DNA of 45,744 nt from a virus, in IMG/VR virus record IMGVR_UViG_3300029955_000049, positions 1-45,744 of that record; one strand, given 5' to 3'. The position numbers were made by a program, and so were the translations under genes. Shown piece by piece: positions 8,297 through 20,562 of this stretch. The first letter of the stretch is position 1, and every line of letters begins with the position of its first letter. The notes beneath the pieces were generated by a model. The model did no database searches. It saw only the letters and a list, made by a program, of their open reading frames with translations, and was not told the DNA's origin.

Positions 8297-8483
8297 CTGG
8301 GGTGTCGTCTAATATTTGGTTAACAATACGATTTTTTAATTCAGGGGTGCATTCCTCAAAGGCTATAACGAAACCTCTACCACAACAATTACGTTCATAG
8401 ATGGTTAGGTCAATGGGAACATAATCCTCATGGATTATTTCTAGGATGTCACCCCTCCACGGTAGATAACTTCGTATACTCAT
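8283..8483 (-). CDS. Small hypothetical protein
   Basis: A 66-residue ORF between the methyltransferase and the polymerase. It overlaps the methyltransferase end by 35 bases and the polymerase start by 14, the tight packing seen elsewhere in this operon. It has a CCGRG cysteine pair near the middle and an acidic C-terminus (LDDTPDEP). No family is recognised. It is kept as a gene because it fills an otherwise empty stretch on the operon strand. Confidence 0.6.
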   Translation of the reverse strand: MSIRSYLPWRGDILEIIHEDYVPIDLTIYERNCCGRGFVIAFEECTPELKNRIVNQILDDTPDEPT

Positions 8484-9822
8484 TGCGTATGTGTTCTAGT
8501 TGACGGTTATAAAACTCCTCATTGATTTCTAACGCAATAGGTTTAAGGCCGAGTTGAAGAGCTGCTAGAGTACTACTTCCCACACCACTAAATGGGTCGA
8601 GTACGGTTTGCCCGGAAATGGCTACACTGTTGTACAGCCATTCCCACACAGCATAGGGTTTAACGAACAAGTGATCCATCCTGGCTTTACCACAGTTGCC
8701 TGCCATGAAGAAGTTTTTACCCTGAGGACGCACCAACGTAGGACTACCCTTTCTAAGGACAGCCACAAACTCTACCGCCTTGGTGAAATTACAAAAGGCG
8801 GAGTTGTTAAGGCAAGTGTGAGTCTTGCACCATACTAGTGGCCATCGTTGAATGGAGAACCCGACACTTTGTGCAGCGGTGCAGAGGGCCATCCAGAACT
8901 CTGGATCACACCAGACGAGGGCATACCCATTATCCTTGAGGCAATTGTAAAATCCTCTGACCATGGGAAGAGTGTTTCCTTTAACTTGTTCTGGTTCGTG
9001 GGTTTGTTCGAGTTCTTGCAGGGTTGTGTTTTCATATTTGTTTCTTTGGTATAGATTAATAAGGTCTTGTCCATAAGGAGGGTCGGTTATGATGTGGTCA
9101 GCACACGCTGGGTGGGACATCATCCAGTCGAAGGCGTCGGTAAGGGTGACACAATCAGGAACCTTACTTGGGGTGGGGCTTACCTCAGATACTATAAGTT
9201 GGGTGGATTCCTCATCTAGGTTTATATCAGGGATTGATGCACACTCTTCCTTTTGATTGTTAACAAAAGTAACCAAACGTTGCATAGCCTCTTTCTCTTT
9301 ACGAGCAGAGAAAACCTTCAATGCATCGGTAAGGGTGGCACACACCTTAATCTGTTCATCTCCCTTTTCAATTGCTTTGCTAATTTGTAACGCATAGGAC
9401 ACGTTAGCTTGAGCAACTCCCAAGAGATCTCCGGTGTGGGATTGTCCCCATTCTGTAAAGGAGAGGGCACTTTGTTTACACTTGAGGGCGTGAATTTTCG
9501 CGATAGCGGAACAGCGTTCTTGCCATGTAAGGTCTTTTCGTTTAACATTTTCTTCTAGTTCTAGTTCTGCTCGTTCATCTTCGGTTAGGGCACCACGGTG
9601 GAGGAAATGTACTCCTTGGATGAGGTTTTCCATTCCGAGTATTTGTAATGCTCTAAGCCTATGCCCACCAGCAATGAGGGTACCTTCCTCATCAAGGATG
9701 ATGGGTTGAAGAAGCCCGTGGAGTTTAATGGATTCGGACAATTGAACTGCATGTTCTTCGTCTGTTTCACGTTGACGATTACCAATTTTGATGTCCTTAA
9801 TGTGGATGACCAGTGGTGTCAT
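8449..9822 (-). CDS. ParB-like nuclease domain fused to beta-class DNA methyltransferase
   Basis: A 457-residue fusion. Residues 4-130 are a ParB/Srx-like N-terminal domain with AGGHRLRALQ at 51-60, followed by a region like the ParB helix-turn-helix (about 120-190). Residues 220-457 are an SAM-dependent DNA amino-methyltransferase with TDPPYG at 245-250 (motif IV) and DPFSGVGSST at 408-417 (motif I). The order IV before I marks the beta class, and DPPY fits N6-adenine or N4-cytosine methylation. No cognate restriction enzyme is nearby, so it is probably an orphan that marks phage DNA against host restriction or for timing. ParB-MTase fusions are known in phages. The target sequence is unknown. 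Confidence 0.9.
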   Translation of the reverse strand: MTPLVIHIKDIKIGNRQRETDEEHAVQLSESIKLHGLLQPIILDEEGTLIAGGHRLRALQILGMENLIQGVHFLHRGALTEDERAELELEENVKRKDLTWQERCSAIAKIHALKCKQSALSFTEWGQSHTGDLLGVAQANVSYALQISKAIEKGDEQIKVCATLTDALKVFSARKEKEAMQRLVTFVNNQKEECASIPDINLDEESTQLIVSEVSPTPSKVPDCVTLTDAFDWMMSHPACADHIITDPPYGQDLINLYQRNKYENTTLQELEQTHEPEQVKGNTLPMVRGFYNCLKDNGYALVWCDPEFWMALCTAAQSVGFSIQRWPLVWCKTHTCLNNSAFCNFTKAVEFVAVLRKGSPTLVRPQGKNFFMAGNCGKARMDHLFVKPYAVWEWLYNSVAISGQTVLDPFSGVGSSTLAALQLGLKPIALEINEEFYNRQLEHIRNEYTKLSTVEG

Positions 9823-9840: not shown

Positions 9841-10047
9841 TTAATTGTTCCAACTTCTACTCCAGCTTCTACTCCAACTTCTGCTCCGGCCCCTACTCCA
9901 ACTTCTACTCCAGCTCCAGCTCGCGCTTCTGCTTCCACTCCCGCTCCAGACCCTGATCTCGCTCCTACTCCAGCTCCAGCTATTGCTCCAGTTCCAACTT
10001 CTGCTCTTTGACAAGATCCAGCTAGCATTTAATTGAGTAGCTTTCAT
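9841..10047 (-). CDS. Ser-X repeat small protein, array member G
   Basis: A 68-residue ORF that starts MKATQLNASW and then alternates serine with W, R, N, G or A to the end. It is the last (downstream) member of the array and is separated from the others by the conserved gene 10095-10445. I chose the ATG at 10047 because the first ten residues match the header of the other members; a longer in-frame reading upstream to 10089 has no such match. Repeat serines are AGC or AGT. Function unknown. All six frames are open across much of the repeat, so the header is the main argument for this frame. Confidence 0.55.
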   Translation of the reverse strand: MKATQLNASWILSKSRSWNWSNSWSWSRSEIRVWSGSGSRSASWSWSRSWSRGRSRSWSRSWSRSWNN

Positions 10048-10094
10048 TTGGAGGTTTGAGGGCAAGAGAATAGTTTCCCCTGCCCCCATTTTGA

Positions 10095-10445
10095 TTATTT
10101 CGAAGGCTTAACTTGTCGAGGCACAGCAGGAATCTGCGTGCCGTCAATGAAGCCGCCCCGTCCAACGAAAACCTCCTGCCCATCGGGAAATGGTTCAACC
10201 TCGTCGAACACTCCAGTTTTTACCGCGATATTGAATCGCCCATCGTCCGCAATCCACGCTGCATCGACAAGCACAAACTCGGCGGGAGTGACTTTGATCA
10301 GAATCCCCGTAAAGTGGTGTGTCACTGTACGTATAAAGTACGGCTTTCCAATTTCCCAGTGTGAATCGTCCTGGGGCGTTGGCCCACCGCCCAAAAGGGC
10401 CTGAATTTGTTTGAGTTGTCCTAACGTTAGTTCATCAATGTTCAT
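10095..10445 (-). CDS. Conserved phage protein of unknown function
   Basis: A 116-residue protein beginning MNIDELTLGQLKQIQALLGG, then a compact beta-rich region with IRTVTHHFTG, VDAAWIADDGRF, FPDGQEVFVGRGG. I recognise this as a type of small protein common in podovirus and siphovirus early regions, with no known function. It interrupts the Ser-X array and has no repeat tract of its own. The leader just before its ATG is A/C-rich with CAAA-like runs (10446-10470) instead of a Shine-Dalgarno site. Confidence 0.8.
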   Translation of the reverse strand: MNIDELTLGQLKQIQALLGGGPTPQDDSHWEIGKPYFIRTVTHHFTGILIKVTPAEFVLVDAAWIADDGRFNIAVKTGVFDEVEPFPDGQEVFVGRGGFIDGTQIPAVPRQVKPSK

Positions 10446-10481
10446 ATTTGTTTTTTGTTTGTTTTTTGATTTACTGACAAA

Positions 10482-10682
10482 TTAATTGCTACTACTCCCC
10501 CTCCCGCTCCGGCTCCAGTTCCAACTCCAACTCCAGCTCTCGCTATAGCTCCTGCTCCCACTCCAGCTCCTGCTCCAGCTCCCGCAACCGCTCTCGCTCT
10601 CGCTCTCGCTATACCGATCGCTTCTACTCACGCTACAACTTCTGGCATAGTGCCAGCCAGTATATAATTGAGTTGCTTTCAT
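10482..10682 (-). CDS. Ser-X repeat small protein, array member F
   Basis: A 66-residue ORF with header MKATQLYTGW, a short mixed stretch (HYARSCSVSRSDRY), then an SESESES run and SW/SR/SG dipeptides, ending SSSN. Its ATG directly follows the TAA of member E, so translation is probably coupled. The tail is built from a six-base DNA repeat of the form AGCNGG, which gives serine at every second residue. No family is recognised. Confidence 0.6.
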   Translation of the reverse strand: MKATQLYTGWHYARSCSVSRSDRYSESESESGCGSWSRSWSGSRSYSESWSWSWNWSRSGRGSSSN

Positions 10683-10883
10683 TTAATAGCTCCAGCTCCA
10701 ACTTCTGCTGCGGCTACGGCTCCAGCTACTACCACTCTCGCTCCCGCTCTCTCTCCAGCTCCTGCTACCACTCCAACTCCAGCTCCAGCTCCAACTTCTG
10801 CTCCTGTTACTACCACTCCCGCTCCAGCTACGACTCCAGCTCTTTGAAAAGAAGCAGCCAGTATATAATTGAGTTGCTTTCAT
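10683..10883 (-). CDS. Ser-X repeat small protein, array member E
   Basis: A 66-residue ORF with header MKATQLYTGC and a linker FFSKSW, then alternating serine with W, R, G or E, including SWSWSWSWSG and SRSRSRSWSWSY. I start it at 10883 from the header; an ATG at 10907 lies in frame but belongs to the repeat tract of member D. The stop TAA touches the ATG of member F. The SR dipeptides recall RS domains of RNA-binding proteins, but this likeness is only compositional. Confidence 0.6.
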   Translation of the reverse strand: MKATQLYTGCFFSKSWSRSWSGSGSNRSRSWSWSWSWSGSRSWRESGSESGSSWSRSRSRSWSWSY

Positions 10884-10885
10884 AT

Positions 10886-10999
10886 TTAGTTTCCACTCCC
10901 GCTCCAACTTCTGTTCCTGCTACCACTCCAGCTACGACTCCAGCTTCTGCTCCAGCTCTTTGACAATAGCCAGCCTCTGTGTAATATTGCTGCTTTCAT
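10886..10999 (-). CDS. Ser-X repeat small protein, array member D (shortest)
   Basis: A 37-residue ORF with header MKAAILHRGW, linker LLSKSW and a short tail ending SWSGSGN. Header and linker are close to those of member C next to it (MKAAILYRGW, LLSKSW), so C and D look like a recent duplication with loss or gain of repeat units. The ATG directly follows the TAA of member C, and its own stop lies two bases before the ATG of member E. Confidence 0.55.
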   Translation of the reverse strand: MKAAILHRGWLLSKSWSRSWSRSWSGSRNRSWSGSGN

Positions 11000-11314
11000 T
11001 TAATTGCTCCAGCTCCAACTTCTGTTCCTGCTACGGCTCCAGTTACGGCTCCAGCTACTACCACTCTCGCTCGCGCTCCCACTCCAGCTCCGGCTCCCAC
11101 TCCAGCTCCAGCTCCAACTTCTGTTCCTGCTCCTGTTACTACCACTCTCGCTCCAGCTTCTACTCCAACTTCTGCCCCAGCTACGGCTCCAGCTCCAACT
11201 TCTGCTTCCACTCCCGCTCCAACTTTCGCTCCGGCTCCGGCTCCAGCTACGACTACAGCTATTGCTCCAACTCTTTGACAAGAGCCATCCTCTGTATAAT
11301 ATTGCTGCTTTCAT
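11000..11314 (-). CDS. Ser-X repeat small protein, array member C (longest)
   Basis: A 104-residue ORF with header MKAAILYRGW and linker LLSKSW, then about 85 residues in which nearly every second residue is serine, with W, R, G, E and N between. It is the longest member, about three times the length of D, with the same start. It sits TAA-to-ATG against both neighbours. Trp and Arg are unusually frequent for a phage protein of this size. The alternation would put serines on one face and W/R on the other face of a beta strand. This is inference. Confidence 0.6.
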   Translation of the reverse strand: MKAAILYRGWLLSKSWSNSCSRSWSRSRSESWSGSGSRSWSWSRSWGRSWSRSWSESGSNRSRNRSWSWSWSGSRSWSGSASESGSSWSRNWSRSRNRSWSWSN

Positions 11315-11479
11315 TTAATTTCTCCAGCTGCAACTTCTGCTCCGGCTCCTGCTACCACTCCAGCTACGACTCCAGTTCCAACTTCTGCTCGCGCTCCAAC
11401 TTCTGCAATAGTTCCTGCCATAGGTCGCGCTATAGCTTATGACCAAGACCCAGCCAATATATAATTGAGTCGCGTTCAT
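11315..11479 (-). CDS. Ser-X repeat small protein, array member B
   Basis: A 54-residue ORF with header MNATQLYIGW and a longer non-repeat linker (VLVISYSATYGRNYCRSW) before the Ser-X tail ending SCSWRN. The stop TAA at 11315-11317 touches the ATG of member C. The linker shows that header and tail need not be joined directly. Confidence 0.55.
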   Translation of the reverse strand: MNATQLYIGWVLVISYSATYGRNYCRSWSASRSWNWSRSWSGSRSRSRSCSWRN

Positions 11480-11692
11480 TTAATTGCTCCAACTTCTGCA
11501 TGTGCTTCTACCTCTGCTCCTACTCGTGCTCTTGCACCATTTCTTGTTCCAGCTACAGCTACGGCTCCAGCTCCAGCTCCGGATCCTGTTTCTGATCGAG
11601 CTTCCGCTTCCGCTTCCGCTCCTGCTCCATGATCCCGTTTCTGTCCCGCTCCAACTCGAGTGCCAGCCTGCATGTAGTTGAGTTGCGTTCAT
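11480..11692 (-). CDS. Ser-X repeat small protein, array member A (first)
   Basis: A 70-residue ORF, the first of the array in the direction of transcription, with header MNATQLHAGW. The tail is less regular than in other members and includes NKKWCKSTSRSRGRS and three cysteines, and it has a few TCN serines. This suggests an older or more diverged copy. Its ATG directly follows the stop of the gene at 11693-11893. Confidence 0.55.
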   Translation of the reverse strand: MNATQLHAGWHSSWSGTETGSWSRSGSGSGSSIRNRIRSWSWSRSCSWNKKWCKSTSRSRGRSTCRSWSN

Positions 11693-11893
11693 TTACAAAT
11701 GGATGTTGGAGAAGGCTAAATTTCTTCTATCTAACTCTTCAAGAAAAGCTAATAGGTGATCGGTGATTAGGTTTATTTCACAAGAGTCAAAACCACTTTC
11801 ATGGCATAAATGAGTCTCGAACCCATGTACGATGTCTAGTGGAGTTAGTTTTTGGGGCTCATCCTTCGGTTGTCGTTTACAGTATATATTCAT
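11693..11893 (-). CDS. Small hypothetical protein
   Basis: A 66-residue ORF directly upstream of the Ser-X array; its TAA touches the ATG of array member A. The N-terminal part has a CKRQP stretch, the C-terminal half is helical and acidic (NLITDHLLAFLEELDRR). No family recognised. Normal amino-acid composition sets it apart from the array, and its position suggests it leads the translationally coupled series. Confidence 0.6.
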   Translation of the reverse strand: MNIYCKRQPKDEPQKLTPLDIVHGFETHLCHESGFDSCEINLITDHLLAFLEELDRRNLAFSNIHL

Positions 11894-11900
11894 AAAATAC

Positions 11901-11924
11901 TGGTGGTTTTTAAGGAGACCACCA
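11901..11924. terminator. Hairpin between SSB-like gene and array
   Basis: TGGTGGT at 11901-11907 pairs with ACCACCA at 11918-11924 (7-bp stem, 10-base loop). On the minus strand it lies just after the stop of the DUF669-like gene and is followed by GTATTTT before the next ATG. It could be a weak terminator or an RNA-processing site that lowers expression of the array. Confidence 0.35.
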
Positions 11925-11934
11925 ACTCCACAGG

Positions 11935-12381
11935 TTAGTCTTTCTTAACGTACTGACCAATCTCATTGGTATCAGGGTATTGATCCGTGCTATCGTGCCG
12001 AATCTTTACCTTAGCAGTGAGTTTACAACCGATGTAGAGTTCAGTATCAAACTTAGCAGTGCGCTTGCCGATAGCGTCTTGAAACATTGCTAAGCGTTTG
12101 ATTGAACTAGCCGCATCAAGGGGTTTACCCTCCTTACTCATTGCTCCCGCTTTAGGGAAGAAGATACGGTCATAGACAGGGAACCCTACATTAATAGGGT
12201 TGCCTTTAATGTCCGTAGCATTTTCGTCCAAAGCAAGTTTAATGTTCAACATAGAACCATTACCTGATTCTGTGTCTTTAGAGGTAATTTCTACAACACT
12301 AAAGTCATACATCCCCACCGCGAGAATGGGAAAGTTTGTGTCAACGTTTGTTAAGTCTTGTCCGATATCTAATATTGCCAT
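11935..12381 (-). CDS. DUF669-like single-strand-binding-type protein
   Basis: A 148-residue beta-rich protein (MLNIKLALDE, GFPVYDRIFF, FDTELYIGCKLTAKVKI) that resembles the DUF669 family. These proteins sit next to phage Sak4/RecA-like ATPases and probably act as single-strand DNA-binding partners. The usual OB-fold-like pattern and the YPDTNEIGQYVKK tail fit this. The neighbour upstream is the RecA-like ATPase, which supports a recombination or replication role. Its leader holds six TTTG units (CAAA on the coding strand). Confidence 0.65.
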   Translation of the reverse strand: MAILDIGQDLTNVDTNFPILAVGMYDFSVVEITSKDTESGNGSMLNIKLALDENATDIKGNPINVGFPVYDRIFFPKAGAMSKEGKPLDAASSIKRLAMFQDAIGKRTAKFDTELYIGCKLTAKVKIRHDSTDQYPDTNEIGQYVKKD

Positions 12382-12385
12382 ATGT

Positions 12386-12409
12386 TTTGTTTGTTTGTTT
12401 GTTTGTTTG
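12386..12409. repeat. (TTTG)6 microsatellite in a gene leader
   Basis: Six perfect TTTG units lie between the small acidic ORF and the DUF669-like gene. On the coding strand this is a CAAA run ending four bases before the ATG at 12381, with no Shine-Dalgarno sequence. It probably keeps the ribosome-landing site unstructured; slippage could change its length. Confidence 0.8.
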
Positions 12410-12429
12410 TTTACTGTTCACTGTCAAAT

Positions 12430-12579
12430 TTACTCATCCTCTTCGTCCTCATCTTCAAGATCGTCCCAGTCAGTTATTTGTACTTCTGGAAACCTGCTTG
12501 CGAGGAATTCTTCGATTTCTTGTCTAATGGTTACGCAGTCTATTTCTATACTTTCGAACTTGATTTCAATAATATGCAT
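12430..12579 (-). CDS. Small acidic protein
   Basis: A 49-residue ORF that starts MHIIEIKFESIEIDC and ends in a highly acidic tail (WDDLEDEDEEDE). It overlaps the end of the RecA-like ATPase gene by 34 bases and is followed by the SSB-like gene. Acidic tails like this occur in SSB-type proteins and DNA mimics, but no family is recognised. Confidence 0.5.
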   Translation of the reverse strand: MHIIEIKFESIEIDCVTIRQEIEEFLASRFPEVQITDWDDLEDEDEEDE

Positions 12580-13316
12580 GATTTATCTGTTAGTTTTGTT
12601 GATTGCAGTTTTGTTGGTTGCAGTTTTGTTTTCAATCTGTCCCAAGACAGTTCGAAAGTGGTAGGTAGGCCAAGGGAGTTACCTAAGGCCATACGAGGAG
12701 TGGGCATAGTCCTAACGATGTATTTGTACTTGTCTCCTCCAGATTGTTCACACTCACATCGCCACACATCAGAGAAGTAGGCACCGATGGTATCTGCTAA
12801 CTGACCGGGAAAGTTTACCCGATAGAGTAACACACCGGAAATTTCATCCTTGTCGTACTTTTCATGCCCCGTGAATATAATTAGTTTCCCGCTACTTCGG
12901 AGCCATACAATAAATTTACTCGCTAGGTCTTTAAGGGTTCCATAGTCCTGAATACGCATCTGTGGAATGTTTTGCTTCCGCAAGATGTGTGCGATAATGT
13001 AGTCCCCTACCATGGTGAGGGAATCGACCACAATGGTTTGCACATCTGGATTGTTAGCGGCGGCTTTACAACACTGTAAAAGGCGCTCATAACGAAAACC
13101 TTCAGGTACCTCCTTTCCTTCATCATCAATGTTGATGGTGTCGTAGTAGAAGGTTTTATCTCCACATCTATTCACAGCACTACTAAGATTGTTATCACAA
13201 TCAGCAAAGTAGGGGTTTGGAAATATCATGGCAGCATTGGTTTTACCACTCTTGGGTGGCCCAAGTAGAAGTAACCCAAAGGATTGATTACTTTGATATT
13301 GTTCGTTTGTTTTCAT
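12546..13316 (-). CDS. RecA/Sak4-like recombination ATPase
   Basis: A 256-residue P-loop protein with GPPKSGKT at residues 19-26 (Walker A) and TIVVDSLT in the Walker B position. It looks like the AAA_24/Sak4 type of phage single-strand annealing ATPases, which work with an SSB-like partner. Here DUF669-like protein and a Cas4/RecB-like nuclease flank it, which gives a complete recombination set. The last residues are repetitive (KLQPTKLQSTKL). Confidence 0.8.
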   Translation of the reverse strand: MKTNEQYQSNQSFGLLLLGPPKSGKTNAAMIFPNPYFADCDNNLSSAVNRCGDKTFYYDTINIDDEGKEVPEGFRYERLLQCCKAAANNPDVQTIVVDSLTMVGDYIIAHILRKQNIPQMRIQDYGTLKDLASKFIVWLRSSGKLIIFTGHEKYDKDEISGVLLYRVNFPGQLADTIGAYFSDVWRCECEQSGGDKYKYIVRTMPTPRMALGNSLGLPTTFELSWDRLKTKLQPTKLQSTKLTDKSCILLKSSSKV

Positions 13317-13495
13317 TTTTGATATATAATGTTCATTTTGATGTCCCGAATAGTGGTGTGTTTTCTACCTAACGTTAGATAGTAGATACCGTTCATTCTA
13401 AGCACTTCAATTAGTTTCTTTCCAGATTCTGAACTGAAGAACTCATCAGCGAAATTTACTACGCGTGGGTCTGCAGGCTTGATAGTGCGTTCCAT
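13313..13495 (-). CDS. Small hypothetical protein
   Basis: A 60-residue basic ORF (MERTIKPADPRVVNFADEFF start) between the nuclease and the RecA-like ATPase, overlapping the first by 37 bases and the second by 4 (ATGA type). The gene order suggests a small accessory factor of the recombination set. No family recognised. Confidence 0.55.
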   Translation of the reverse strand: MERTIKPADPRVVNFADEFFSSESGKKLIEVLRMNGIYYLTLGRKHTTIRDIKMNIIYQK

Positions 13496-14478
13496 GAGGT
13501 TTTTTCGTAGAGGTTAGTGTTTAACATGGTAAGACGTTGAGATTGCGGGAGTGTACACACATCGTAATACTGACAACGTCCGTATTTCCCCACACATTGT
13601 TTAGTATGCATTGGGAAATAGTTTTGAGCCCAGTACCTTAGGAGGTCTCCTATAACATACAGTGTGTTGTTACGCCACTCTACTAGGTTTTCTGGAGTGA
13701 TGTACACATGCATACGTTCAAACTCAATACCTTTACCAGTTTTGGTAGGCTTGCGAAGAGCGATAGCGTTTATGAGGACACCATTAATTTCCCTTCCTAG
13801 TAGGTGAGAAGCGGCCCACGTATACCCCATCATTTGACTTGAGATGTTGAACTCCTCAAAGTAGGATGGTCCCATCATGGTGGTGGTTTTGTGGTCTAAA
13901 ACACGGTAGAGGTCCCTGTCTCCAATAATAGCGTCGATTCGGCCCGTCCACACTACAGGTACTTCAAGGGAACCAGCATAAACCACACCAAGAGGGATGG
14001 CAAATTCCTTCTCGACAAAACCGTCAACGACTTCGAATGTTTCCACAGGGTATTTCGCCTGATACTTATCCCAGACTTCTATTAAGTAGTCGGGGGTACG
14101 GAAGTCTTCGGGATCGATAGCGGAATCTTTGAGGATGTCCAGACCAGCCTGTAAGCACAACTTCGGATCTTCTCCTAGTAGAGGGTTGGTACCCCGTAGG
14201 TACCGTTGCTCTAGGATTTTGTGGACTGCTCCACCGAATCCAAGGGCAGCTTTCTTTCTACTGATTGTTCGCTTGAGACCCAGTTGGTAGAATGCGGCTC
14301 TTGGGCAGGTTGTGAAGGTTTCAAGAGTACTGTTATCGATGAACAAGGAGTTGTCGATAAGGATTGATTGAAGGTTTGGGAAATGTTCATGGGTGTGGTC
14401 TGATAAAGGGGGTGGTGCTGGGATGAAGCTTCCCGCACAGGGAGTGGCTCCGACTGGAATAGTTGGGGTAACATGCAT
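13459..14478 (-). CDS. PD-(D/E)XK nuclease, Cas4/RecB-like with Fe-S cysteines
   Basis: A 339-residue nuclease. The core has GAVHKILEQRY (conserved His), GRIDAIIGD and VLDHKTT, the D...DxK pattern of the PD-(D/E)XK fold. One cysteine at residue 58 (TTCPRA) and three near the C-terminus (C-x6-C-x5-C before TLPQSQR) match the four-cysteine iron-sulphur staple of Cas4/AddB-type nucleases. It probably resects DNA ends for the annealing ATPase downstream. The first 45 residues are proline-rich and overlap the previous gene; no later ATG precedes the conserved part, so 14478 is kept. Confidence 0.82.
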   Translation of the reverse strand: MHVTPTIPVGATPCAGSFIPAPPPLSDHTHEHFPNLQSILIDNSLFIDNSTLETFTTCPRAAFYQLGLKRTISRKKAALGFGGAVHKILEQRYLRGTNPLLGEDPKLCLQAGLDILKDSAIDPEDFRTPDYLIEVWDKYQAKYPVETFEVVDGFVEKEFAIPLGVVYAGSLEVPVVWTGRIDAIIGDRDLYRVLDHKTTTMMGPSYFEEFNISSQMMGYTWAASHLLGREINGVLINAIALRKPTKTGKGIEFERMHVYITPENLVEWRNNTLYVIGDLLRYWAQNYFPMHTKQCVGKYGRCQYYDVCTLPQSQRLTMLNTNLYEKTSWNALSSLQTHA

Positions 14479-14789
14479 TGTAGTGTTGTTTCTAGTAGGA
14501 TTAAGTTGTTAGCTGCCGAGTAGGGGATAAAAGCTAGGATGTCGTTTTCGTTTGGCGCGTAGATAGCTCTTAGTTTCTGGTGATTTTTTTCTCTAATACC
14601 TTGTTGTGTTTTTTCCGGCAAAGTGTTTAGGTATCTATGTATGTAGGCTACGTTGTGTATGTAGTTCGGAATAGGCTGATCACCGAAAATGGGGTGGATG
14701 CCGTACCATTCTCCCGTTGGGACTAGGTTCTGGTATGGTTCATAACCTTCCAACTTTGCAAGCTGAAGGCACATCTCTAGTGGGGTCAT
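14211..14789 (-). CDS. Hypothetical protein, possibly ABA-sandwich type
   Basis: A 192-residue ORF whose first half (WYGIHPIFGD, YIHNVAYIHRYLNTL) has the feel of the small phage ABA-sandwich domain. The second half is low in conservation and shares 268 bases with the start of the nuclease gene in another frame. The ATG overlaps the stop of the upstream gene as ATGA, which supports the start. The true functional part probably ends near residue 110. Confidence 0.6.
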   Translation of the reverse strand: MTPLEMCLQLAKLEGYEPYQNLVPTGEWYGIHPIFGDQPIPNYIHNVAYIHRYLNTLPEKTQQGIREKNHQKLRAIYAPNENDILAFIPYSAANNLILLETTLQCMLPQLFQSEPLPVREASSQHHPLYQTTPMNISQTFNQSLSTTPCSSITVLLKPSQPAQEPHSTNWVSSEQSVERKLPLDSVEQSTKS

Positions 14790-15028
14790 TGGAGAAGAGA
14801 ATTAAGTATTGCGTCTTGTTGAATCTTTGTGGCACTGAGAGTTTTAGGTTTCTTCTCTTTGACGATCTTTGCACGAAGGGTGGTGGGACTAGTGCGGATT
14901 TGTCTAAGGTGTAGGACAAATGATCGGAGTTGTTCCTCCGTCATGGTGTCGAGAGGTTGATCCAGTAGACTCCATACTGGTTCGTCTTCCCATAAACCGA
15001 GTGTATTCTTCGAGAGTGGTAGTTCCAT
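14786..15028 (-). CDS. Small conserved-type phage protein
   Basis: An 80-residue ORF. The part from residue 29 (MTEEQLRSFVLHLRQIRTSP, then TLRAK) resembles a short helical protein found in many phages, of unknown role. A start at 14944 (52 residues) would reduce the 125-base overlap with the gene upstream and fits the conserved part better than the ATG at 15028; I give the longer form. Confidence 0.55.
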   Translation of the reverse strand: MELPLSKNTLGLWEDEPVWSLLDQPLDTMTEEQLRSFVLHLRQIRTSPTTLRAKIVKEKKPKTLSATKIQQDAILNSLLQ

Positions 15029-15209
15029 AGGTGGTAATGTTGTGTTGTTTTAGATGTTGAACTAAGGAGAATATCAACCCGCTAATGGTGGTAGTGAGGA
15101 TTCCATGATATGGCAAAACGCTATTGAGATACGCGTGGTGTTCGGAGGATATGTCCACACTAACACGCACCTTTGATGAAGCTCTGAGATAGGGGTTAGT
15201 GGGGAGCAT
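14904..15209 (-). CDS. Small phage protein, RHH-like start
   Basis: A 101-residue ORF. Residues 12-55 (VRVSVDISSEHHAYLNSVLP and on through a GLIFSLVQHL helix) follow a strand-helix-helix plan like short ribbon-helix-helix proteins seen in phage genomes; DNA binding is possible. The C-terminal third is Ser/Thr-rich and overlaps the next gene in another frame. The ATG lies four bases after the upstream stop. Confidence 0.55.
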   Translation of the reverse strand: MLPTNPYLRASSKVRVSVDISSEHHAYLNSVLPYHGILTTTISGLIFSLVQHLKQHNITTYGTTTLEEYTRFMGRRTSMESTGSTSRHHDGGTTPIICPTP

Positions 15210-15213
15210 ACAT

Positions 15214-15735
15214 TTACAGGATGGTTAAACGATTACCGTCAACACGATAGGCGATATCGTGGTTGGCTTGGAGAGCGTGAACTAGGTTGAGGATCTCCTT
15301 CTCTGGCTTGGTGATTAGTACCTCAGTAAAGATTCGTTTGGAGAGGAGGGTGACTAGTGCTCGGAGGGTGTCCTCATCACAGGTTTCCATAGTCCACTTA
15401 GTCTTGTCGGAGACAGAGAAGGTGGTTTTCGCATTGAGTTCTTTAGTTTTAGCCTTCGGCCCAACATAGATGGTGGAGTCTTCCAACACACGAACACAGA
15501 GGGAGTCTTCCTTCCTTAGTTGAAGGAATTTCTCCATGTTGAGGGCAGTTTCCCAGTGGTTAGTCTCTAGGGATGTCATAGCGTCTCGAAGACGGCATGA
15601 GACGGTTTCAGGAGACATGTCATTACAGGTTATGTGGACACTCTTAGGGTACATATCCACTGCGTCGGCTATGATACGTTCGTACCGACGAAAGGATGCT
15701 TCTTTGAACCTATAGGGCAATTGGGTCGTTTGCAT
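15214..15735 (-). CDS. Hypothetical protein
   Basis: A 173-residue alpha/beta protein of normal composition (YPKSVHITCNDMSPETVSCR, DSTIYVGPKAKT, YRVDGNRLTIL end). It overlaps the upstream gene by 26 bases. No family recognised. Length and clean coding frame make it a likely gene of the early region. Confidence 0.7.
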   Translation of the reverse strand: MQTTQLPYRFKEASFRRYERIIADAVDMYPKSVHITCNDMSPETVSCRLRDAMTSLETNHWETALNMEKFLQLRKEDSLCVRVLEDSTIYVGPKAKTKELNAKTTFSVSDKTKWTMETCDEDTLRALVTLLSKRIFTEVLITKPEKEILNLVHALQANHDIAYRVDGNRLTIL

Positions 15736-15904
15736 ATGATGTGGCTTGTTCTTGTTCTTCTAGGGTTAAAAAAATGAGTTCTTTGTCAGCGGTTTTACCT
15801 TCGGAAAAGGCGAAGTATTGTTTAGTTTCAGAGTCGTAAATGCAGCGGACGGTTATGGTTCTTTCTACGATCATTTCAACTTCGGTGTAGACGACCATTT
15901 TCAT
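15710..15904 (-). CDS. Small hypothetical protein
   Basis: A 64-residue ORF, mostly beta strands at the start (VEMIVERTITVRCIYDSETK) with an acidic helix at the end. Its ATG overlaps the previous stop as ATGA, which argues for translational coupling and a real gene. Confidence 0.6.
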   Translation of the reverse strand: MKMVVYTEVEMIVERTITVRCIYDSETKQYFAFSEGKTADKELIFLTLEEQEQATSYANDPIAL

Positions 15905-16173
15905 GATAACAGATATTCAAGGTGTTTTTTAATTTCACTAGGACTAGAAGTCTTAGTCTTTTGTTGGGCAGTGGCTTTTGCCCACCGTGAGGGGCGGAAA
16001 AAGGCGTTGTCGTAGTAGCCTGCCTCTGCATACTTCCGAATCTTTGCATCGGTTAGTTTTCCCAATTTGATTCGGGATGCGTAGTCCGTACAGGAAGGAA
16101 AACGTGCTTTGGTATTCATAGTGATCCATTCAAGGTGACGTTTTCTGGCTGGTTCGTATGTTAGTGTTTGCAT
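15901..16173 (-). CDS. Small basic hypothetical protein
   Basis: A 90-residue basic protein (RKRHLEWITMNTKARFPS, AKIRKYAEAGYYDNAFFRPS). The YAxAGYYDNAFF part looks folded and specific, but I do not recognise it. It starts a coupled series of small genes after the 16258-16286 hairpin. Confidence 0.6.
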   Translation of the reverse strand: MQTLTYEPARKRHLEWITMNTKARFPSCTDYASRIKLGKLTDAKIRKYAEAGYYDNAFFRPSRWAKATAQQKTKTSSPSEIKKHLEYLLS

Positions 16174-16257
16174 ATTTTAGGTTTCGTGTTGGGGCTTCAG
16201 ACCATAATCAAAATAGCGGATGACACGGTTCACATGAAGACTAGCGTCATGGTAGAG

Positions 16258-16286
16258 ACACTAGGGTGGTTGGAACACCCTAGTGT
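16258..16286. terminator. Strong hairpin, 11-bp perfect stem
   Basis: ACACTAGGGTG at 16258-16268 pairs fully with CACCCTAGTGT at 16276-16286 around a 7-base loop. It lies ten bases after the stop of 16296-16886 in the leftward direction. There is no T run on either side, so it may be a factor-dependent terminator or an RNA-processing/stability element. Confidence 0.55.
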
Positions 16287-16295
16287 AGTGGAGGG

Positions 16296-16886
16296 TTAGC
16301 TCAACAAGGCGAGGGTTGCCGCTTCTGAGCGTGCAACGTCTTCCGCAATGGCCTTGGCCAACTCTTCGAGTGATCCGCCCACAGGATGTCCGAGGGACTT
16401 CGCCAGCTTCTGGCTAACATGCCCAACGGCCTTCTCACCCTTGTCGATAATCGCCTGAGCAATGGCGAGCCATTTCTTATTGGTTTTCTTGGGGGTGGGA
16501 GCTTTCCGTTCACGAGCGGAAGCATCGAAGACAATGGAGGTACTGATTGCGTCAGCAATCTTCTGAACCTCTTCAATTGTGATCAGGCCAGTGGCCATCA
16601 CACGTTTGACATATTGTTGTTCCGTTTCCGTGTACTTCACTACGGGATCCCCATCTCGGTCTTTCTTATCGGTATTAACCGATGTACGAATGATTTCGGT
16701 AGCTTCTTCCAGTTTGGACACCAGAGCTTCGCGAAATTCTGCGAGGCAGGTGCGGTACGCGATGTTGTCGATCGCTTCATCGAGAACGGCACCAGCACGC
16801 TTAGCGGACTGGTCAAACTCTTCGATGGTTTCTGGCACGTTGAAACGTGCGACTACGCCTACACTGTTATATTCTTTAATCTTCAT
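16296..16886 (-). CDS. Hypothetical early protein
   Basis: A 196-residue, mostly helical, charged protein. The middle has ATEIIRTSVNTDKKDRDG, and a lysine-rich linker (APTPKKTNKK) leads to an alanine-rich helical C-terminus. No family recognised. It stands alone between two hairpins (16258-16286 and 16979-16998), so it may be its own transcription unit. The leader before ATG is A/C-rich (AACCAAAACAACTA). Confidence 0.65.
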   Translation of the reverse strand: MKIKEYNSVGVVARFNVPETIEEFDQSAKRAGAVLDEAIDNIAYRTCLAEFREALVSKLEEATEIIRTSVNTDKKDRDGDPVVKYTETEQQYVKRVMATGLITIEEVQKIADAISTSIVFDASARERKAPTPKKTNKKWLAIAQAIIDKGEKAVGHVSQKLAKSLGHPVGGSLEELAKAIAEDVARSEAATLALLS

Positions 16887-16978
16887 TAGTTGTTTTGGTT
16901 AGTGAATGGGAACCGCCCAATCGTCGGAAGGGAATTTTTCCCATAGGGGATAGCGGGAGGCGGTAGCAGGATGGTACT

Positions 16979-16998
16979 ATCCCCTCATTTGAGGGGAT
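16979..16998. terminator. Hairpin, 9-bp perfect stem
   Basis: ATCCCCTCA (16979-16987) and TGAGGGGAT (16990-16998) are perfectly complementary around TT. On the minus strand the hairpin covers the stop codon of a 23-residue ORF at 16985-17056. It may be a terminator or attenuator ahead of the gene at 16886. Confidence 0.5.
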
Positions 16999-17056
16999 TG
17001 GCCCATGCTAGAGTGCATATCAATAATTGATCTGCACCAAGGCGTTCTGTTTTCAT
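16985..17056 (-). CDS. Possible 23-residue leader peptide
   Basis: A short ORF (starts MKTERLGADQ, ends AWANPLK) with the same A/C-rich start context (AACCAACCAACATG) as neighbouring genes. Its TGA lies in a perfect hairpin, an arrangement like translation-sensitive attenuators. It could also be a decayed gene start; the next gene up, 17822, also begins MKTE. Confidence 0.35.
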   Translation of the reverse strand: MKTERLGADQLLICTLAWANPLK

Positions 17057-17065
17057 GTTGGTTGG

Positions 17066-17263
17066 TTAGTTACGTCGGCCTAGGAAGGCCCCTGTTTCTA
17101 GTGTCATGGTTATGGCACAATCGGAATGCCCCATTCGGGGCAAGCTTTCCCCGATGGAGCGAAGTTGGGCAAACTCCCTACGCCGAAACTCTACTTCCGA
17201 GGTAGAGAGGGGGCGATCTTGAGGTTCAAGGGTAACGGAGGGTGGTGGTGGTATTTTGTTCAT
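17066..17263 (-). CDS. Small hypothetical protein
   Basis: A 65-residue ORF with a proline-rich start (MNKIPPPPSV) and an Arg/Glu-rich middle (EVEFRRREFAQLRS). The ATG follows the upstream stop by three bases in the same direction. Its coding sequence holds short GC-rich hairpins (for instance TGCCCC/GGGGCA at 17127-17142). No family recognised. Confidence 0.5.
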   Translation of the reverse strand: MNKIPPPPSVTLEPQDRPLSTSEVEFRRREFAQLRSIGESLPRMGHSDCAITMTLETGAFLGRRN

Positions 17264-17266
17264 AGG

Positions 17267-17503
17267 TTAGTAGGTTTCTGTGGGCTCGACCGCGAGTCGA
17301 GTGAATTGTGGGCAGTAGGTTTGGACGGCAGTTGGCCGCATGTGCCGAAGGCATCCACGTGTGGAACCTTTTAGATCAATGCGCATATCCCGATAGCGGA
17401 TTTTTCGGAGATATATGCAATTTTGACAGCATATATCTCCCGGACGAAGGGGGCGTTCGATTTTCATATCCGTGCCGAGGGGGTTCCTATTGGTGGTATT
17501 CAT
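17267..17503 (-). CDS. Small cysteine-cluster protein (Zn-binding type)
   Basis: A 78-residue ORF. The pattern CCQNCIYLR, then about 20 residues, GCLRHMRPT and YCPQFTRL matches small phage proteins with CxxC...C-x2-R-xx-P...WCGxF spacing that probably bind zinc or another metal. The ATG at 17503 overlaps the upstream gene by 17 bases; ATG at 17467 would give 66 residues. A longer in-frame reading to 17644 is only the shadow of the cysteine-repeat gene. Role unknown. Confidence 0.6.
   Translation of the reverse strand: MNTTNRNPLGTDMKIERPLRPGDICCQNCIYLRKIRYRDMRIDLKGSTRGCLRHMRPTAVQTYCPQFTRLAVEPTETY
17464..17488. repeat. 25-base direct repeat, copy 1
   Basis: An exact copy of the 25 bases at 17895-17919, starting TCATATCCGTGCC. 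This copy lies over the end of the cysteine-repeat gene and the start of the next; the other copy covers the end of the 172-residue gene. Placing at gene borders suggests gene shuffling through short identity. Confidence 0.85.
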
Positions 17504-17822
17504 TTTTGCAGTCGACACAGCTCGTGCAGCCGACGCACTTGACGCAGTCAGTGCTGTCGATGCAAGAAATGGAGTGTTTGCAGTCGACACACTTGACACA
17601 GTCAGTGCCGTTGGCACATCGTGCACAGTACCTACACTGGACACAGTACCAGCAATCGACGCAGTCCCGACAGGCGATGCAGTCAGAGCAGTCCCGACAA
17701 TTCCAGCATCCTATGTTCCCCTCATCGTGTGAGGGTAGGTCCCGGGCGTGGGACACCCCGTTGATGGTTTTGTCCGGACGGTTAACGAATTCCTCATATG
17801 AGGCAAATAGTTCGGTTTTCAT
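17487..17822 (-). CDS. Cysteine-repeat protein (Cys every third residue)
   Basis: A 111-residue protein. The first 37 residues are ordinary; the rest has 20 cysteines in about 70 residues, mostly in unbroken CxxCxxC series (CRDCSDCIACRDCVDC, CVQCRYCARC), with two short breaks at SIS and DST. Every third residue being cysteine suggests a metal- or Fe-S-rich solenoid or a heavily cross-linked rod. The DNA shows matching nine-base periodicity. Similar CxxC-repeat proteins are seen in phages, but no activity is known to me. The Cys-cluster gene follows with a 17-base overlap. Confidence 0.65.
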   Translation of the reverse strand: MKTELFASYEEFVNRPDKTINGVSHARDLPSHDEGNIGCWNCRDCSDCIACRDCVDCWYCVQCRYCARCANGTDCVKCVDCKHSISCIDSTDCVKCVGCTSCVDCKNEYHQ

Positions 17823-17894
17823 GTGTTGGTTTTAGTTTTTCCTATTGGTGTCCGATGTCCGATAAGGACTGAATGCCGAAAGGCAATGGAGACC

Positions 17895-17919
17895 TCATAT
17901 CCGTGCCGAGGGGGTTCCT
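17895..17919. repeat. 25-base direct repeat, copy 2
   Basis: Identical to 17464-17488. Just beyond it two short hairpins can form: CCGAGG/CCTCGG around GGGTT, and GGCCC/GGGCC around GTGA. It holds the stop codon of the gene at 17895-18413. Confidence 0.85.
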
Positions 17920-18413
17920 CGGCCCGTGAGGGCCGTGTAGGTGCAGTGAGATATGGTTTCGCCCGTGTCCCCAAATCGGTCCATGCGGGCAATGGAACCA
18001 TCGCCCCTGAGGGCGAAGTTCCGCTCGGCCATTGCCGAGCTATACCCCCCATTGCCAGTAATTACCACGCCGTCCCGCTCGAGCTGGTCGACGAACCAGC
18101 TCTGGAAGGTGGGTTTCTCCAGAGTTAGGGCTCCCGTCCCTTCGATGGGTGTGAGTTTTTCTCTGGCCTTCGCGGCCAGTTCAAGTCGTCGCTCCCGAGT
18201 GGATTCTTCCCACCCCGGGAGGTGAATGAAAAATGGCACCATCCTTCCGGTGACTCGTACGGAGAGGGTCCGCCGAGAAAATCCGGTGGTACCCATGAGG
18301 GTACCATTCCAGTCCGCGACGCTGTGGTCGCGGGGGTGCCTATCCCATTCGAGGCAGACAACCTCCCTCTGCAAGATCGCTTCGATCACATTTCCAGTTA
18401 TTCTATATTTCAT
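17895..18413 (-). CDS. Hypothetical early protein
   Basis: A 172-residue protein (start MKYRITGNVIEAILQREVVC) with a WDRHPRD motif, strand-rich middle (SVRVTGRMVPFFIHLPGW) and a helical Arg/Glu-rich stretch. No family recognised. The leader AACACAACAAAT before ATG is G-free like those of its neighbours. Another ORF in this region (17819-18052, same strand, other frame) is judged a shadow. Confidence 0.6.
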   Translation of the reverse strand: MKYRITGNVIEAILQREVVCLEWDRHPRDHSVADWNGTLMGTTGFSRRTLSVRVTGRMVPFFIHLPGWEESTRERRLELAAKAREKLTPIEGTGALTLEKPTFQSWFVDQLERDGVVITGNGGYSSAMAERNFALRGDGSIARMDRFGDTGETISHCTYTALTGRGTPSARI

Positions 18414-18440
18414 ATTTGTTGTGTTGATGTGTTGGTTTGT

Positions 18441-18578
18441 TCAATCGAACAATAGTTCATCGAAGACGGCAAGGGTTAGCAAGAGACTAACCGCTTCTAT
18501 GGTGTCCATCTCACAGAGTTTTAAGAGCGCGATGTCATCACTGAGGATGTTTTCACTTAGTTGTTGTATTGGTTTCAT
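18441..18578 (-). CDS. Small hypothetical protein
   Basis: A 45-residue ORF starting MKPIQQLSEN and ending AVFDELLFD, helical and acidic. The start context AACCAACACATG is the same as for the cysteine-repeat gene, which supports it. Function unknown. Confidence 0.5.
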   Translation of the reverse strand: MKPIQQLSENILSDDIALLKLCEMDTIEAVSLLLTLAVFDELLFD

Positions 18579-18687
18579 GTGTTGGTTTGTTGGTGAGCCG
18601 AAGGGCTCAAGGCTTAGCGGAATGCGGCGGCAGAATTTGCCTATGGGGCAAAATGTGCCGGAATGTGCCGGAATGGGAAGAAATGTG

Positions 18688-18710
18688 TTGGTCGAGTGTC
18701 ACGTGTCGTG
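18688..18710. repeat. Inverted repeat arm 1 (TTGGTCGAGTGTCACGTGTC...)
   Basis: 23 bases that match the reverse complement of 18953-18975 with one difference. Each arm holds the palindrome CACGTG. The 242-base space between arms contains the tandem dyads, so the pair could be paired protein-binding sites that loop the region. Confidence 0.8.
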
Positions 18711-18735
18711 CCTTTGCTGGGCATGAAGCTGGTGC

Positions 18736-18780
18736 TTTCCAGACGGAAAAGGGAAATTTGGTGTTTCCAGACGGAAAATG
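18736..18780. promoter_or_regulatory. Tandem operator-like dyads TTTCC-AGAC-GGAAA
   Basis: Two copies of TTTCCAGACGGAAAA followed by GGGAAATT, beginning at 18736 and 18764. Each has the perfect dyad TTTCC/GGAAA. A spacing of 28 bases is near three helical turns, as expected for cooperative binding of a dimeric regulator. No regulator gene is identified. Confidence 0.6.
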
Positions 18781-18952
18781 GGAAATTGAGTTTTATACTC
18801 TAAGACGAGGTTTCCTATACCCTTATAAAAAAAAAAAAATTTTAAGTATATAGGGCCAAAAGCACCCCCCCTAGTTTGGAGGAAAATCGCATATTTTTAG
18901 TCCAAAAAATTGTTTCCTCTCATACTCGCCTAAAATCACTGGCCAAAAAATT

Positions 18953-18975
18953 CACGACACGTGACATTCGACCAA
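18953..18975. repeat. Inverted repeat arm 2
   Basis: Partner of 18688-18710 (22 of 23 bases complementary). It lies just left of an A/T-rich stretch. Confidence 0.8.
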
Positions 18976-19049
18976 TAAATATTGCTACAAGGGAAGAAAA
19001 ATAGGCCAATATTCCCTACAAGGAATATGACTACTCCCACGTGAAAGGG

Positions 19050-19115
19050 CATCTGAGGAGTATGCATCACATATTGATCCACACTCCTCAGATGAATGGG
19101 GTCGAACCATTCATC
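19050..19115. terminator. Two overlapping hairpins after 19125-19421
   Basis: CATCTGAGGAGT (19050-19061) pairs with ACTCCTCAGATG (19083-19094), and GATGAATGG (19091-19099) pairs with CCATTCATC (19107-19115). The two share GATG and so partly exclude each other. They follow the stop of the leftward gene 19125-19421. A terminator or a switch between two RNA forms are both possible. Confidence 0.5.
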
Positions 19116-19124
19116 CGGGCAGGG

Positions 19125-19421
19125 CTACTCAAGCAAGGCAGCCTCTTTTTCTTCGGGATCTACCACACATCCCGCTTTTCTCAGCATTTGGGTGTGCTGG
19201 CTAAAGTTCAGCCAGCCAACACCGACTGTGCCCAAAAACTTTGATACGTCCTTCTTAAATGCCTCGTCCACCAAGCCTGCCTCGACGAGACAGTAGGCTA
19301 GGAAATAAGCCCCGGCCGATTGGTCAAAGCCGTTGATTTTTACATATTCTGAATTTTTCCCCGTGCTCAGCCACTCCCCGTACGCTTTAATCACTAATTC
19401 TTTTGTCATATTATTCTCCAT
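19125..19421 (-). CDS. Small hypothetical early protein
   Basis: A 98-residue protein (starts MENNMTKELVIKAYGEWLS) with a helical fold feel and ending EKEAALLE. It is the first leftward gene and therefore may be expressed first. A second ATG four codons on (19409) is possible. An inverted repeat TTCCGC/GCGGAA (19425-19449) lies just upstream of the start and could mask it or bind a regulator. Confidence 0.6.
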   Translation of the reverse strand: MENNMTKELVIKAYGEWLSTGKNSEYVKINGFDQSAGAYFLAYCLVEAGLVDEAFKKDVSKFLGTVGVGWLNFSQHTQMLRKAGCVVDPEEKEAALLE

Positions 19422-19868
19422 GTTTTCCGCCTCAGAATTGAAGCGGAAGAAGCCATCCTCTCAACTCAGGCTGGCTTCCTCCACCTCTATCTGTTCAGGG
19501 AACGTCATGACGCTCTTCGGTTCTCGCCCCATAGGGAGGTTCTGGCACTCTCCCGGCTTCGATTGCTTCCCCCCGTGGCATTCGTGGGAAGCTGTCAATG
19601 AACTTCTAACAACTTCTAGCACATAGCGGTCTGGAGATGAAGTGTCGTGGGTGTGGATTATTCACATGTGTGGATTATTCACAAAAGGGTACCTTGCCCA
19701 GCGGGGGAGGCGGCGTGGCTTAGGTCCCCTTTTCGGTAAATTTGAATTTGAGATCCTACAATAGGAGATTTCGGATTGGCAGCATAATCACAGCGGCCCT
19801 TGCCTAGCGGCCCTTTGTAGCCCACTACAAACCCCACAACCCTCCACTACCGCCTTTCCCTCATCCAC
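19422..19868. promoter_or_regulatory. Divergent noncoding region with DnaA-box-like repeats
   Basis: No convincing gene. Features seen: hairpin TTCCGC/GCGGAA at 19425-19449; tandem TGTGGATTATTCACA at 19652 and 19669; AGCGGCCCT at 19792 and 19806 (again at 19925); a TACAAT hexamer at 19757 without a clear -35. Being between the leftward and rightward halves, it is the natural place for late promoters and possibly an origin or packaging start. Confidence 0.55.
19652..19683 (+). promoter_or_regulatory. Tandem DnaA-box-like sites
   Basis: Two exact copies of TGTGGATTATTCACA, 17 bases apart. Each includes TTATTCACA (19658-19666 and 19675-19683), which fits the DnaA box consensus TTWTNCACA, and forms a partial dyad (TGTG...CACA). 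They may attract host DnaA, or be operators of a phage regulator. Confidence 0.5.
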
Positions 19869-20024
19869 ATGGGCAATCCTCCAACCATCTCTACCCACAC
19901 GCCAACCACCTACCCCTCTACCGTAGCGGCCCTAATCAACACCACCAACGCGAAGAGAAGTGTTAAGGTGGTTTCCGCTGGAGGGGAGAAGCCCACCACC
20001 AAGACAGCGTGTGAAAAAGTTTAA
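19869..20024 (+). CDS. Possible small Pro/Thr-rich protein before terminase
   Basis: A 51-residue ORF (starts MGNPPTISTH, ends KTACEKV) that opens the rightward set and overlaps the start of the small terminase. The stretch is C-rich with few G on the plus strand. It could also be an untranslated or packaging-related region; coding status is uncertain. Confidence 0.3.
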   Translation: MGNPPTISTHTPTTYPSTVAALINTTNAKRSVKVVSAGGEKPTTKTACEKV

Positions 20025-20562
20025 CAAACAGTTGTTTGAAAACTCTCCTCTGTCCGGATCAGCTATTGATCAGGACTATTCGAGAGACCCTGACCGCCTT
20101 TATGGTGATCTTGATTCGCAGAGTCCGAATCTCGCCATACTTAAGGAGAAGCCGGAACACCGGATGATTGTATATCTCAAGGCGCAGGGTCTCTCTAATA
20201 ATGAGATTGCAGAACGTACTGGGTACACCTACCCCTGGGTGAGTCAGATCACTCGGCAACCGTGGTTCAAGCAACGGCTCGTTGCGGAAATGAAGGAGAG
20301 TGGTAGGGACAGCATTCAGGACATGTTGAAGGTTACTGCAGCTGACAGTGTCCAGACGCTCATCGAACTCCGAGACACAAGTGATAGTCCTGCAGTCCGT
20401 AAGGCTGCTGCCTCTGATCTGCTAGATCGCTACCTCGGTAAACCCACTATGCGGGTGGAGAGTACCAACAGCAACAAGGTTACGTACGAAGATGTTACTG
20501 GAATTGATAAGGAACTCCTTAAGGTTAATGAGGAACTTAAACGCTTAAGCGGACATGTCTGA
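19960..20562 (+). CDS. terS: Terminase small subunit
   Basis: A 200-residue protein that recognises phage DNA for packaging. Residues 67-95 form a helix-turn-helix (LKAQGLSNNEIAERTGYTYP and following WVSQI), followed by a helical oligomerisation region and a C-terminal tail. The listed start is GTG at 19960; GTG at 20011 (183 residues) would avoid most overlap with the small ORF upstream. The large subunit follows with an 8-base overlap. Confidence 0.85.
   Translation: MLRWFPLEGRSPPPRQRVKKFNKQLFENSPLSGSAIDQDYSRDPDRLYGDLDSQSPNLAILKEKPEHRMIVYLKAQGLSNNEIAERTGYTYPWVSQITRQPWFKQRLVAEMKESGRDSIQDMLKVTAADSVQTLIELRDTSDSPAVRKAAASDLLDRYLGKPTMRVESTNSNKVTYEDVTGIDKELLKVNEELKRLSGHV

Follow-up and report, generated by a model that had tools for sequence, protein, structure and literature searches.

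The window, that is, the whole stretch of DNA analysed here (45,744 nt, corresponding to the entire 45.7-kb IMG/VR record IMGVR_UViG_3300029955_000049), contains seven minus-strand genes (A–G), each encoding a 10-residue header followed by an alternating Ser-X tail in which X is Trp, Arg, Gly, Glu or Asn. As judged from sequence comparisons, the Ser-X genes belong to a widespread phage protein family and show a conserved pairing with a small partner gene, whose assignment to the Sm fold is well supported by structural models. Tailed-phage genes in the window encode a terminase, portal, major head protein, primase, DNA ligase, Sak4-like annealing protein and exonuclease, and a DNA polymerase I-type gene is also present. 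The array is located on the minus strand in an early-gene neighbourhood, flanked by the Sak4/exonuclease genes and a ParB-methyltransferase gene:

8449..9822, minus strand: gene for a ParB-N and N6/N4 DNA methyltransferase protein, flanking the module (context)
9841..10047, minus strand: Ser-X unit G, header MKATQLNASW plus tail, 68 aa; next gene downstream of the partner, as in the canonical order
10095..10445, minus strand: predicted Sm-fold partner gene, type 1, 116 aa, between F and G; HMM E-value 5e-40, the window protein being one of the 41 rows from which the HMM was built
10482..10682, minus strand: Ser-X unit F, header MKATQLYTGW plus tail, 66 aa
10683..10883, minus strand: Ser-X unit E, header MKATQLYTGC plus tail, 66 aa
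10886..10999, minus strand: Ser-X unit D, header MKAAILHRGW plus tail, 37 aa
11000..11314, minus strand: Ser-X unit C, header MKAAILYRGW plus tail, 104 aa with 17 Trp, 16 Arg and 42 Ser
11315..11479, minus strand: Ser-X unit B, header MNATQLYIGW plus tail, 54 aa
11480..11692, minus strand: Ser-X unit A, header MNATQLHAGW plus tail, 70 aa, net charge +11
11693..11893, minus strand: 66-aa gene, its TAA abutting the ATG of unit A
11935-12381, minus strand: gene for a PHROG 2300 protein, flanking early gene (context)
12546-13316, minus strand: gene for a Sak4-like annealing protein, flanking early gene (context)
13459-14478, minus strand: exonuclease gene, flanking early gene (context)

Organization and reading frame of the Ser-X array

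The initial annotation had described seven tandem units with a shared header and a Ser-X tail. All seven were found, on the minus strand, but the row is broken by the 116-aa partner gene between units F and G. Five junctions at which TAA is directly followed by ATG had been read correctly (11693 gene-A, A-B, B-C, C-D and E-F), and the D-E junction is TAA-AT-ATG. Six of the seven units lie upstream of the partner gene, which is not the usual order. The 66-aa gene next to unit A had no family match and is at most a candidate member of the module.

In all seven units the header of about 10 aa leads in frame, without internal stop, into a Ser-[Trp/Arg/Gly] tail that extends to the stop codon; frame 2 contains 2–11 stops per unit. 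X is encoded by NGG or NGA (or by a codon with another base). At this position TGG and TGA occurred 59:0, versus 37:33 for AGG+CGG+GGG compared with AGA+CGA+GGA (Fisher p = 2e-11, a descriptive value since some repeat copies share descent). If the frame were irrelevant, TGG would be expected to decay to TGA in the same way as AGG decays to AGA, and the ratio of 59:0 thus shows that the Ser-X frame is under selection and that stop codons are purged from it. The Gly/Ala frame, in which TGA is not forbidden, is open only because its second base is nearly always G. Silent changes in the header, from which selection on the protein had been proposed, are present (GCA/GCG/GCT, TTA/CTA and GGC/GGA) but too few to prove it on their own; the proposal itself is borne out by other phages, which encode the same header and Ser-[Trp/Arg/Gly] tail but use different Ser and Arg codons.

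The sole match to the MKATQ header type of the window was a 13.2-kb contig of the same virus (L002; IMGVR_UViG_3300031261_000451), which is 100% identical to window positions 10667-23876, and this header type was absent from the genome contigs searched by the same route. The end of the contig lies within the Ser-X array, where repeats would be expected to break the assembly. The syntenic phages MW202489, OP947158, Mel-JY34 and Kuura agree with the window in much of their gene order near this locus. As neither the partner nor Ser-X genes were present in the stretches read from these four phages, the module has the appearance of an insertion into a common phage backbone.

The Ser-X family and its partner gene

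A tail-based DNA pattern matched at least 120 viral contigs (49 with a stricter pattern), and about 80–86 loci with genuine header plus Ser-[Trp/Arg/Gly] genes remained after filtering. The tail-based scans took AGY serine codons for granted. A DNA scan of IMG/VR with the header alone was therefore added, which used the pattern MNAAx[L/M/I/V]RxG[F/Y/W/L/C][D/E] and was blind to the tails. It retrieved 36 header copies in 34 contigs. Header and tail frames, whose agreement in relatives had been suggested as a check, coincided in 32 of these 36 copies found without tail information, with the header leading into an alternating-Ser tail that was mostly Ser-[Trp/Arg/Gly]. Headers resembling those of the window comprise MNAIQLRTGW (L042), MNAAQLRTGF (L061, two tandem copies), MNAAILRTGF (L118) and MNQAILREGF (L262), and MW202573 and MW202825, both from Manatee Spring, also have the Ser-X version. 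Two or more Ser-X genes were present at 14 of 86 loci, with eight in L267, seven in the window and four in L257. The view that the array represents a multi-copy, length-changing family of protein-coding genes, sited in an early region with recombination genes on one side and methylation genes on the other, is supported.

Across 108 genes, X was Arg at 970, Gly at 835 and Trp at 807 positions, with all other residues summing to fewer than 200. The order of X residues is near random, and Trp-Trp neighbours are fewer than in shuffled tails (182 vs 229). The dominant Ser codon in the 32 header-only genes was TCG (17 genes), AGC (8), TCA (5), TCT (1) or AGT (1), and Arg is encoded by CGG or AGG. 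Because the Ser codon changes between phages while the peptide stays, the constraint acts on the protein, and a DNA-motif explanation is excluded for the family. Within a gene a single Ser codon dominates (median 97% of Ser positions), as expected if the tails grow by hexamer slippage, which supports the suggested origin of the tails from a hexamer able to slip in frame. The specific hexamer named in the initial annotation, AGCNGG, holds for the window but is one codon solution among several and not a conserved feature; in AGC-type genes, X is encoded by TGG, GGG and, in most cases, either AGG or CGG.

These codon data also bear on a function at the level of nucleic acid, according to which the AGCNGG repeats would be Shine-Dalgarno-like (GGAG) or Chi-like sites, or a neutral microsatellite with by-product peptides. 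GGAGC does recur every 6 nt in AGC-type tails, the tail ends in the window place GGAG 7–8 nt ahead of the next ATG, and the tails are made of slipping hexamers. We nevertheless regard this explanation as highly improbable, as 17 of the 32 header-only genes use TCG and another six TCA or TCT, so that the peptide is kept and the motif lost, in-frame TGA is purged, and header and partner are conserved. The retention of the peptide with loss of the DNA motif in TCG, TCA and TCT genes likewise led to the rejection of ideas based on a Shine-Dalgarno sponge, NGG codons or Chi-like sites.

A tblastn search of phages with the Ser-X proteins gave no match even at E = 10, and none of 600 pattern matches from another search was confirmed, for which low-complexity masking is probably responsible. 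Such masking most likely hides Ser-X peptides from BLAST, and these nil results do not speak for an absence of Ser-X genes. Some annotated records omit Ser-X-like peptides or call another frame, and peptides of this type are easily missed in searches and annotation.

The stretches ahead of the Ser-X genes showed a conserved small gene, usually directly upstream and most commonly with a 4-nt overlap (26 genes). Ser-X genes follow this partner except in the window (six of seven units), L042 and L257, in which they precede it. The partner was located within 1.5 kb at 69 of 80 Ser-X loci versus 0 of 116 bacterial control loci, although statistics over related phages are not independent. At 'control' viral loci, partner matches were few and came mostly from genuine Ser-X or low-complexity loci that the strict filters had failed to catch. 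Whole-record searches recovered the partner for three further contigs (L044, L114 and L103). It was absent from the stored records of L092, L100 and L271, and the other partnerless loci are cut at contig ends. L092 carries tandem Ser-X genes with the header MTICTKI[FS]EL (10436-11617, minus strand), and neither partner type was found in its 67.9-kb record. The partner was found neither in the plasmids searched nor in 398 bacterial genomes (one phylum sample), and the same search does detect it in virus records carrying it. Neighbours of Ser-X loci include RecE-like exonucleases, RecT/Erf/Bet annealing proteins, DNA methyltransferases and helicases.

Predicted fold of the partner and the DUF6948 version

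The partners fall into two related types, type 1 (about 110 aa, ...YFIRTVT..TGRL..V..ELVLEDAAWIADTGRF...VIVGRGSIIDA...) and type 2 (about 85 aa), for which hhalign gave 94.6% when compared with each other. The Ser-X partner families had no match in Pfam, PHROGs or NCBIfam; for the window partner, this applies to Pfam and PHROG. An Sm/Hfq-like barrel was proposed from the motif pattern ahead of the fold search. AlphaFold2 models reached a pLDDT of 91.4 for the window partner and of 88.5 for type 2. The top Foldseek matches of the window partner were Sm/LSm proteins, with E-values of only about 1e-3 (best 2e-3). In VIA-align, the window partner (type 1) aligned with archaeal SmAP1 at Z 9.6 and rmsd 2.0 over 66 residues, and the type-2 model with the same SmAP1 at Z 10.9 and rmsd 1.6 over 65 residues; all rows listed for the former, and all top PDB rows for the latter, were Sm/LSm proteins. 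The predicted fold thus resembles archaeal SmAP1 and eukaryotic Sm/LSm proteins (1i8f, LSm2-8) in its N-terminal helix and small beta barrel (Z 9.6–10.9 over ~65 residues). In contrast to these proteins, the partner shares only roughly 7–23% identity with them, has no Pfam LSM match and matched no Sm, LSm or Hfq sequence model among the Pfam or NCBIfam results. An Sm2-like Arg-Gly occurs in the window protein (VGRGGFI) and in about half of the type-1 partners (22 of 41), but in none of 16 type-2 partners, and its lack in many partners leaves room for another mode of RNA binding, or for none.

Comparison of type 1 with DUF6948 (Pfam PF22253) by hhalign gave 97.4%, and by this profile comparison the two are remote homologues; the window partner itself had no DUF6948 match at the Pfam gathering score and is linked to the family by profile comparison only. 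A Vibrio phage protein with the same N-terminal segment as the partner was assigned to DUF6948 (E = 1.6e-30), with a (Gly-[Tyr/Ser/Asp])n peptide encoded after it. The DUF6948 version occurs in Vibrio phage IKEMa6-1, the pair of DUF6948 and Gly-[Tyr/Ser/Asp] peptide is also present in the Pectobacterium phages Koroua and Sabo and in Iodobacter phage PhiPLPE, and related forms were detected in MW202898, CV-1-33 and two faecal contigs. Whereas nearly all Ser-X genes derive from metagenomic contigs, the DUF6948 version belongs to phages of named hosts. DUF6948 and the window partner have in common an N-terminal MNINDLT-like helix and an alternating low-complexity peptide encoded after the gene. 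Unlike the Ser-X partners, DUF6948 is a Pfam family of its own, and its peptide is acidic Gly-[Tyr/Ser/Asp] instead of basic Ser-[Trp/Arg/Gly]. Taken together, the DUF6948 and Ser-X pairs suggest a general rule of a DUF6948-like, predicted Sm-fold protein with an adjacent alternating-dipeptide peptide.

In the gut phages L319 and L322 (MT835900 and MT836871), the gene after DUF6948 has a short Gly-Tyr/Ser/Asp run followed by a longer, apparently folded segment (IKTFNGDKVYIIDD...AHGETL) that matched no relevant Pfam family. Annotated Met-Ala/Leu repeats beside a DUF6948-like gene in L318 (4286-4531, CV-1-33 gene25) and at the start of L321 1505-2077 (MW202478) probably result from reading a Gly-Tyr/Ser/Asp-type peptide gene in the wrong frame.

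Possible role of the module and relation to known systems

We propose, giving the model an even chance, that the module encodes an Sm-like chaperone of nucleic acids, expressed early, to which a separate gene supplies the disordered tail in trans. The Sm/LSm-fold protein (10095-10445) would assemble into a ring and bind RNA or single-stranded DNA at an early stage of infection, and one or more short disordered peptides (units A–G) would be the second part of the module, with the ~10-residue header probably docking on the Sm-like partner and the Ser-[Trp/Arg/Gly] tail contributing charge and aromatic residues for contact with nucleic acid. The disordered tail of the Sm protein would be a separate gene, free to be copied and lengthened, in which in-frame gain or loss of hexamers alters the tail length and selection maintains the Ser-X pattern. 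The tails may form a condensate, and the DUF6948 sister version would employ an acidic (Gly-[Tyr/Ser/Asp])n tail.

The partners are slightly acidic, at a mean charge of about -3, and the Ser-X tails are basic (mostly +4 to +16); DUF6948 is near neutral and its tails are acidic. Headers carry a mean charge of +0.5 with type-1 and +3.5 with type-2 partners, and the header motif [LMIV]RxG[FYWLC] was present in 32 of 62 headers with type 1 versus 0 of 20 with type 2, although this co-variation of header and partner class may have arisen through shared descent alone. The charges, the match of header and partner class and the recombination neighbours favour an early nucleic-acid chaperone with the header as docking segment. 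The RS-like nucleic-acid binding that the initial annotation had suggested for the tails is better motivated by the predicted RNA-binding-ring fold of the partner; the tails are not Arg-Ser dipeptide repeats as in SR/RS domains, as Ser alternates about equally with Trp, Arg and Gly, and any likeness to such domains would concern the mode of action alone.

The same composition could also point to peptides that act independently as nucleic-acid-binding or condensate scaffolds, with Trp/Arg stickers and Ser/Gly spacers organising replication sites or phage RNA. In that case the Sm-like protein would be a separate client and the header would not be a docking motif. The basic and aromatic tail makes up most of the protein, and the tails of the DUF6948 counterpart are Gly/Tyr-rich and resemble known gel-forming low-complexity domains. 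We consider independent scaffolds unlikely, however, since the strict pairing with one partner fold and the maintenance of the header in many phages argue for a specific contact. Even less likely is a phage-host conflict module, in which the peptide would be a host-directed effector, decoy or membrane-active Trp/Arg peptide, the Sm-like protein its antidote or carrier, and an arms race the cause of copy and length change. Its small overlapping gene pair, fast copy and length change (eight, seven and four genes in L267, the window and L257) and cationic Trp/Arg make-up would fit the module, but the acidic Gly-[Tyr/Ser/Asp] version is unlike any membrane-active peptide, the order within the gene pair varies, and the genes are sited among replication and recombination genes instead of lysis genes.

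For the chaperone with a tail in trans, bacterial Hfq provides a working analogy, as its Sm core is regulated by a disordered tail that modulates RNA binding (PMC5606850). The Hfq tail is, however, fused and acidic, whereas the Ser-X tail would be separate, multi-copy, mostly basic and aromatic. Borg Sm proteins acquire rapidly evolving tandem-repeat disordered regions (PMC9879509) and thereby resemble the module as Sm proteins of mobile elements; their repeats, in contrast, are fused at the N-terminus, 4–17 residues long and found in archaeal elements, and do not form a separate dipeptide-repeat gene family of phages. No paper on Ser-Trp/Arg strings or on DUF6948 was found in the open-access literature searched, and the set of Sm-like protein and Ser-X peptide genes, which is widespread, is apparently undescribed. 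The initial annotation had missed the partner gene lying amid the units, its predicted Sm/LSm fold and the wide distribution of the family.

A broader proposal, which we put forward tentatively and with less confidence than the chaperone model, is that many tailed phages possess an unrecognised RNP-like system consisting of an Sm-fold ring and a separate, tandemly copied tail-peptide gene, with basic Ser-[Trp/Arg/Gly] and acidic Gly-[Tyr/Ser/Asp] versions, which would build nucleic-acid condensates or chaperone annealing beside the recombination machinery. If true, phages would have naturally divided an Sm-like protein and its low-complexity tail between two genes, with the tail evolving through visible changes in copy number and length. 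Such a system would join low-complexity-domain grammar, Sm-ring biology and phage early genes, provide a first handle on DUF6948, an uncharacterised phage protein family, and be open to study in isolated phages with the DUF6948 version (Vibrio IKEMa6-1, Pectobacterium Koroua/Sabo and Iodobacter PhiPLPE).

Further repeats were observed elsewhere in the window. A 111-aa ORF without Pfam match (17487-17822, minus strand) is rich in C-x-x-C repeats (CWNCRDCSDCIACRDCVDCWYC...). Short tandem repeats, (TTTG)n and a 15-mer, lie at early-gene boundaries (12386-12412 and 12592-12630), and ~21-bp repeats at 22991-23382 encode SLTNVNTSLTNVN-like heptads within a 754-aa protein (22370-24634, plus strand).
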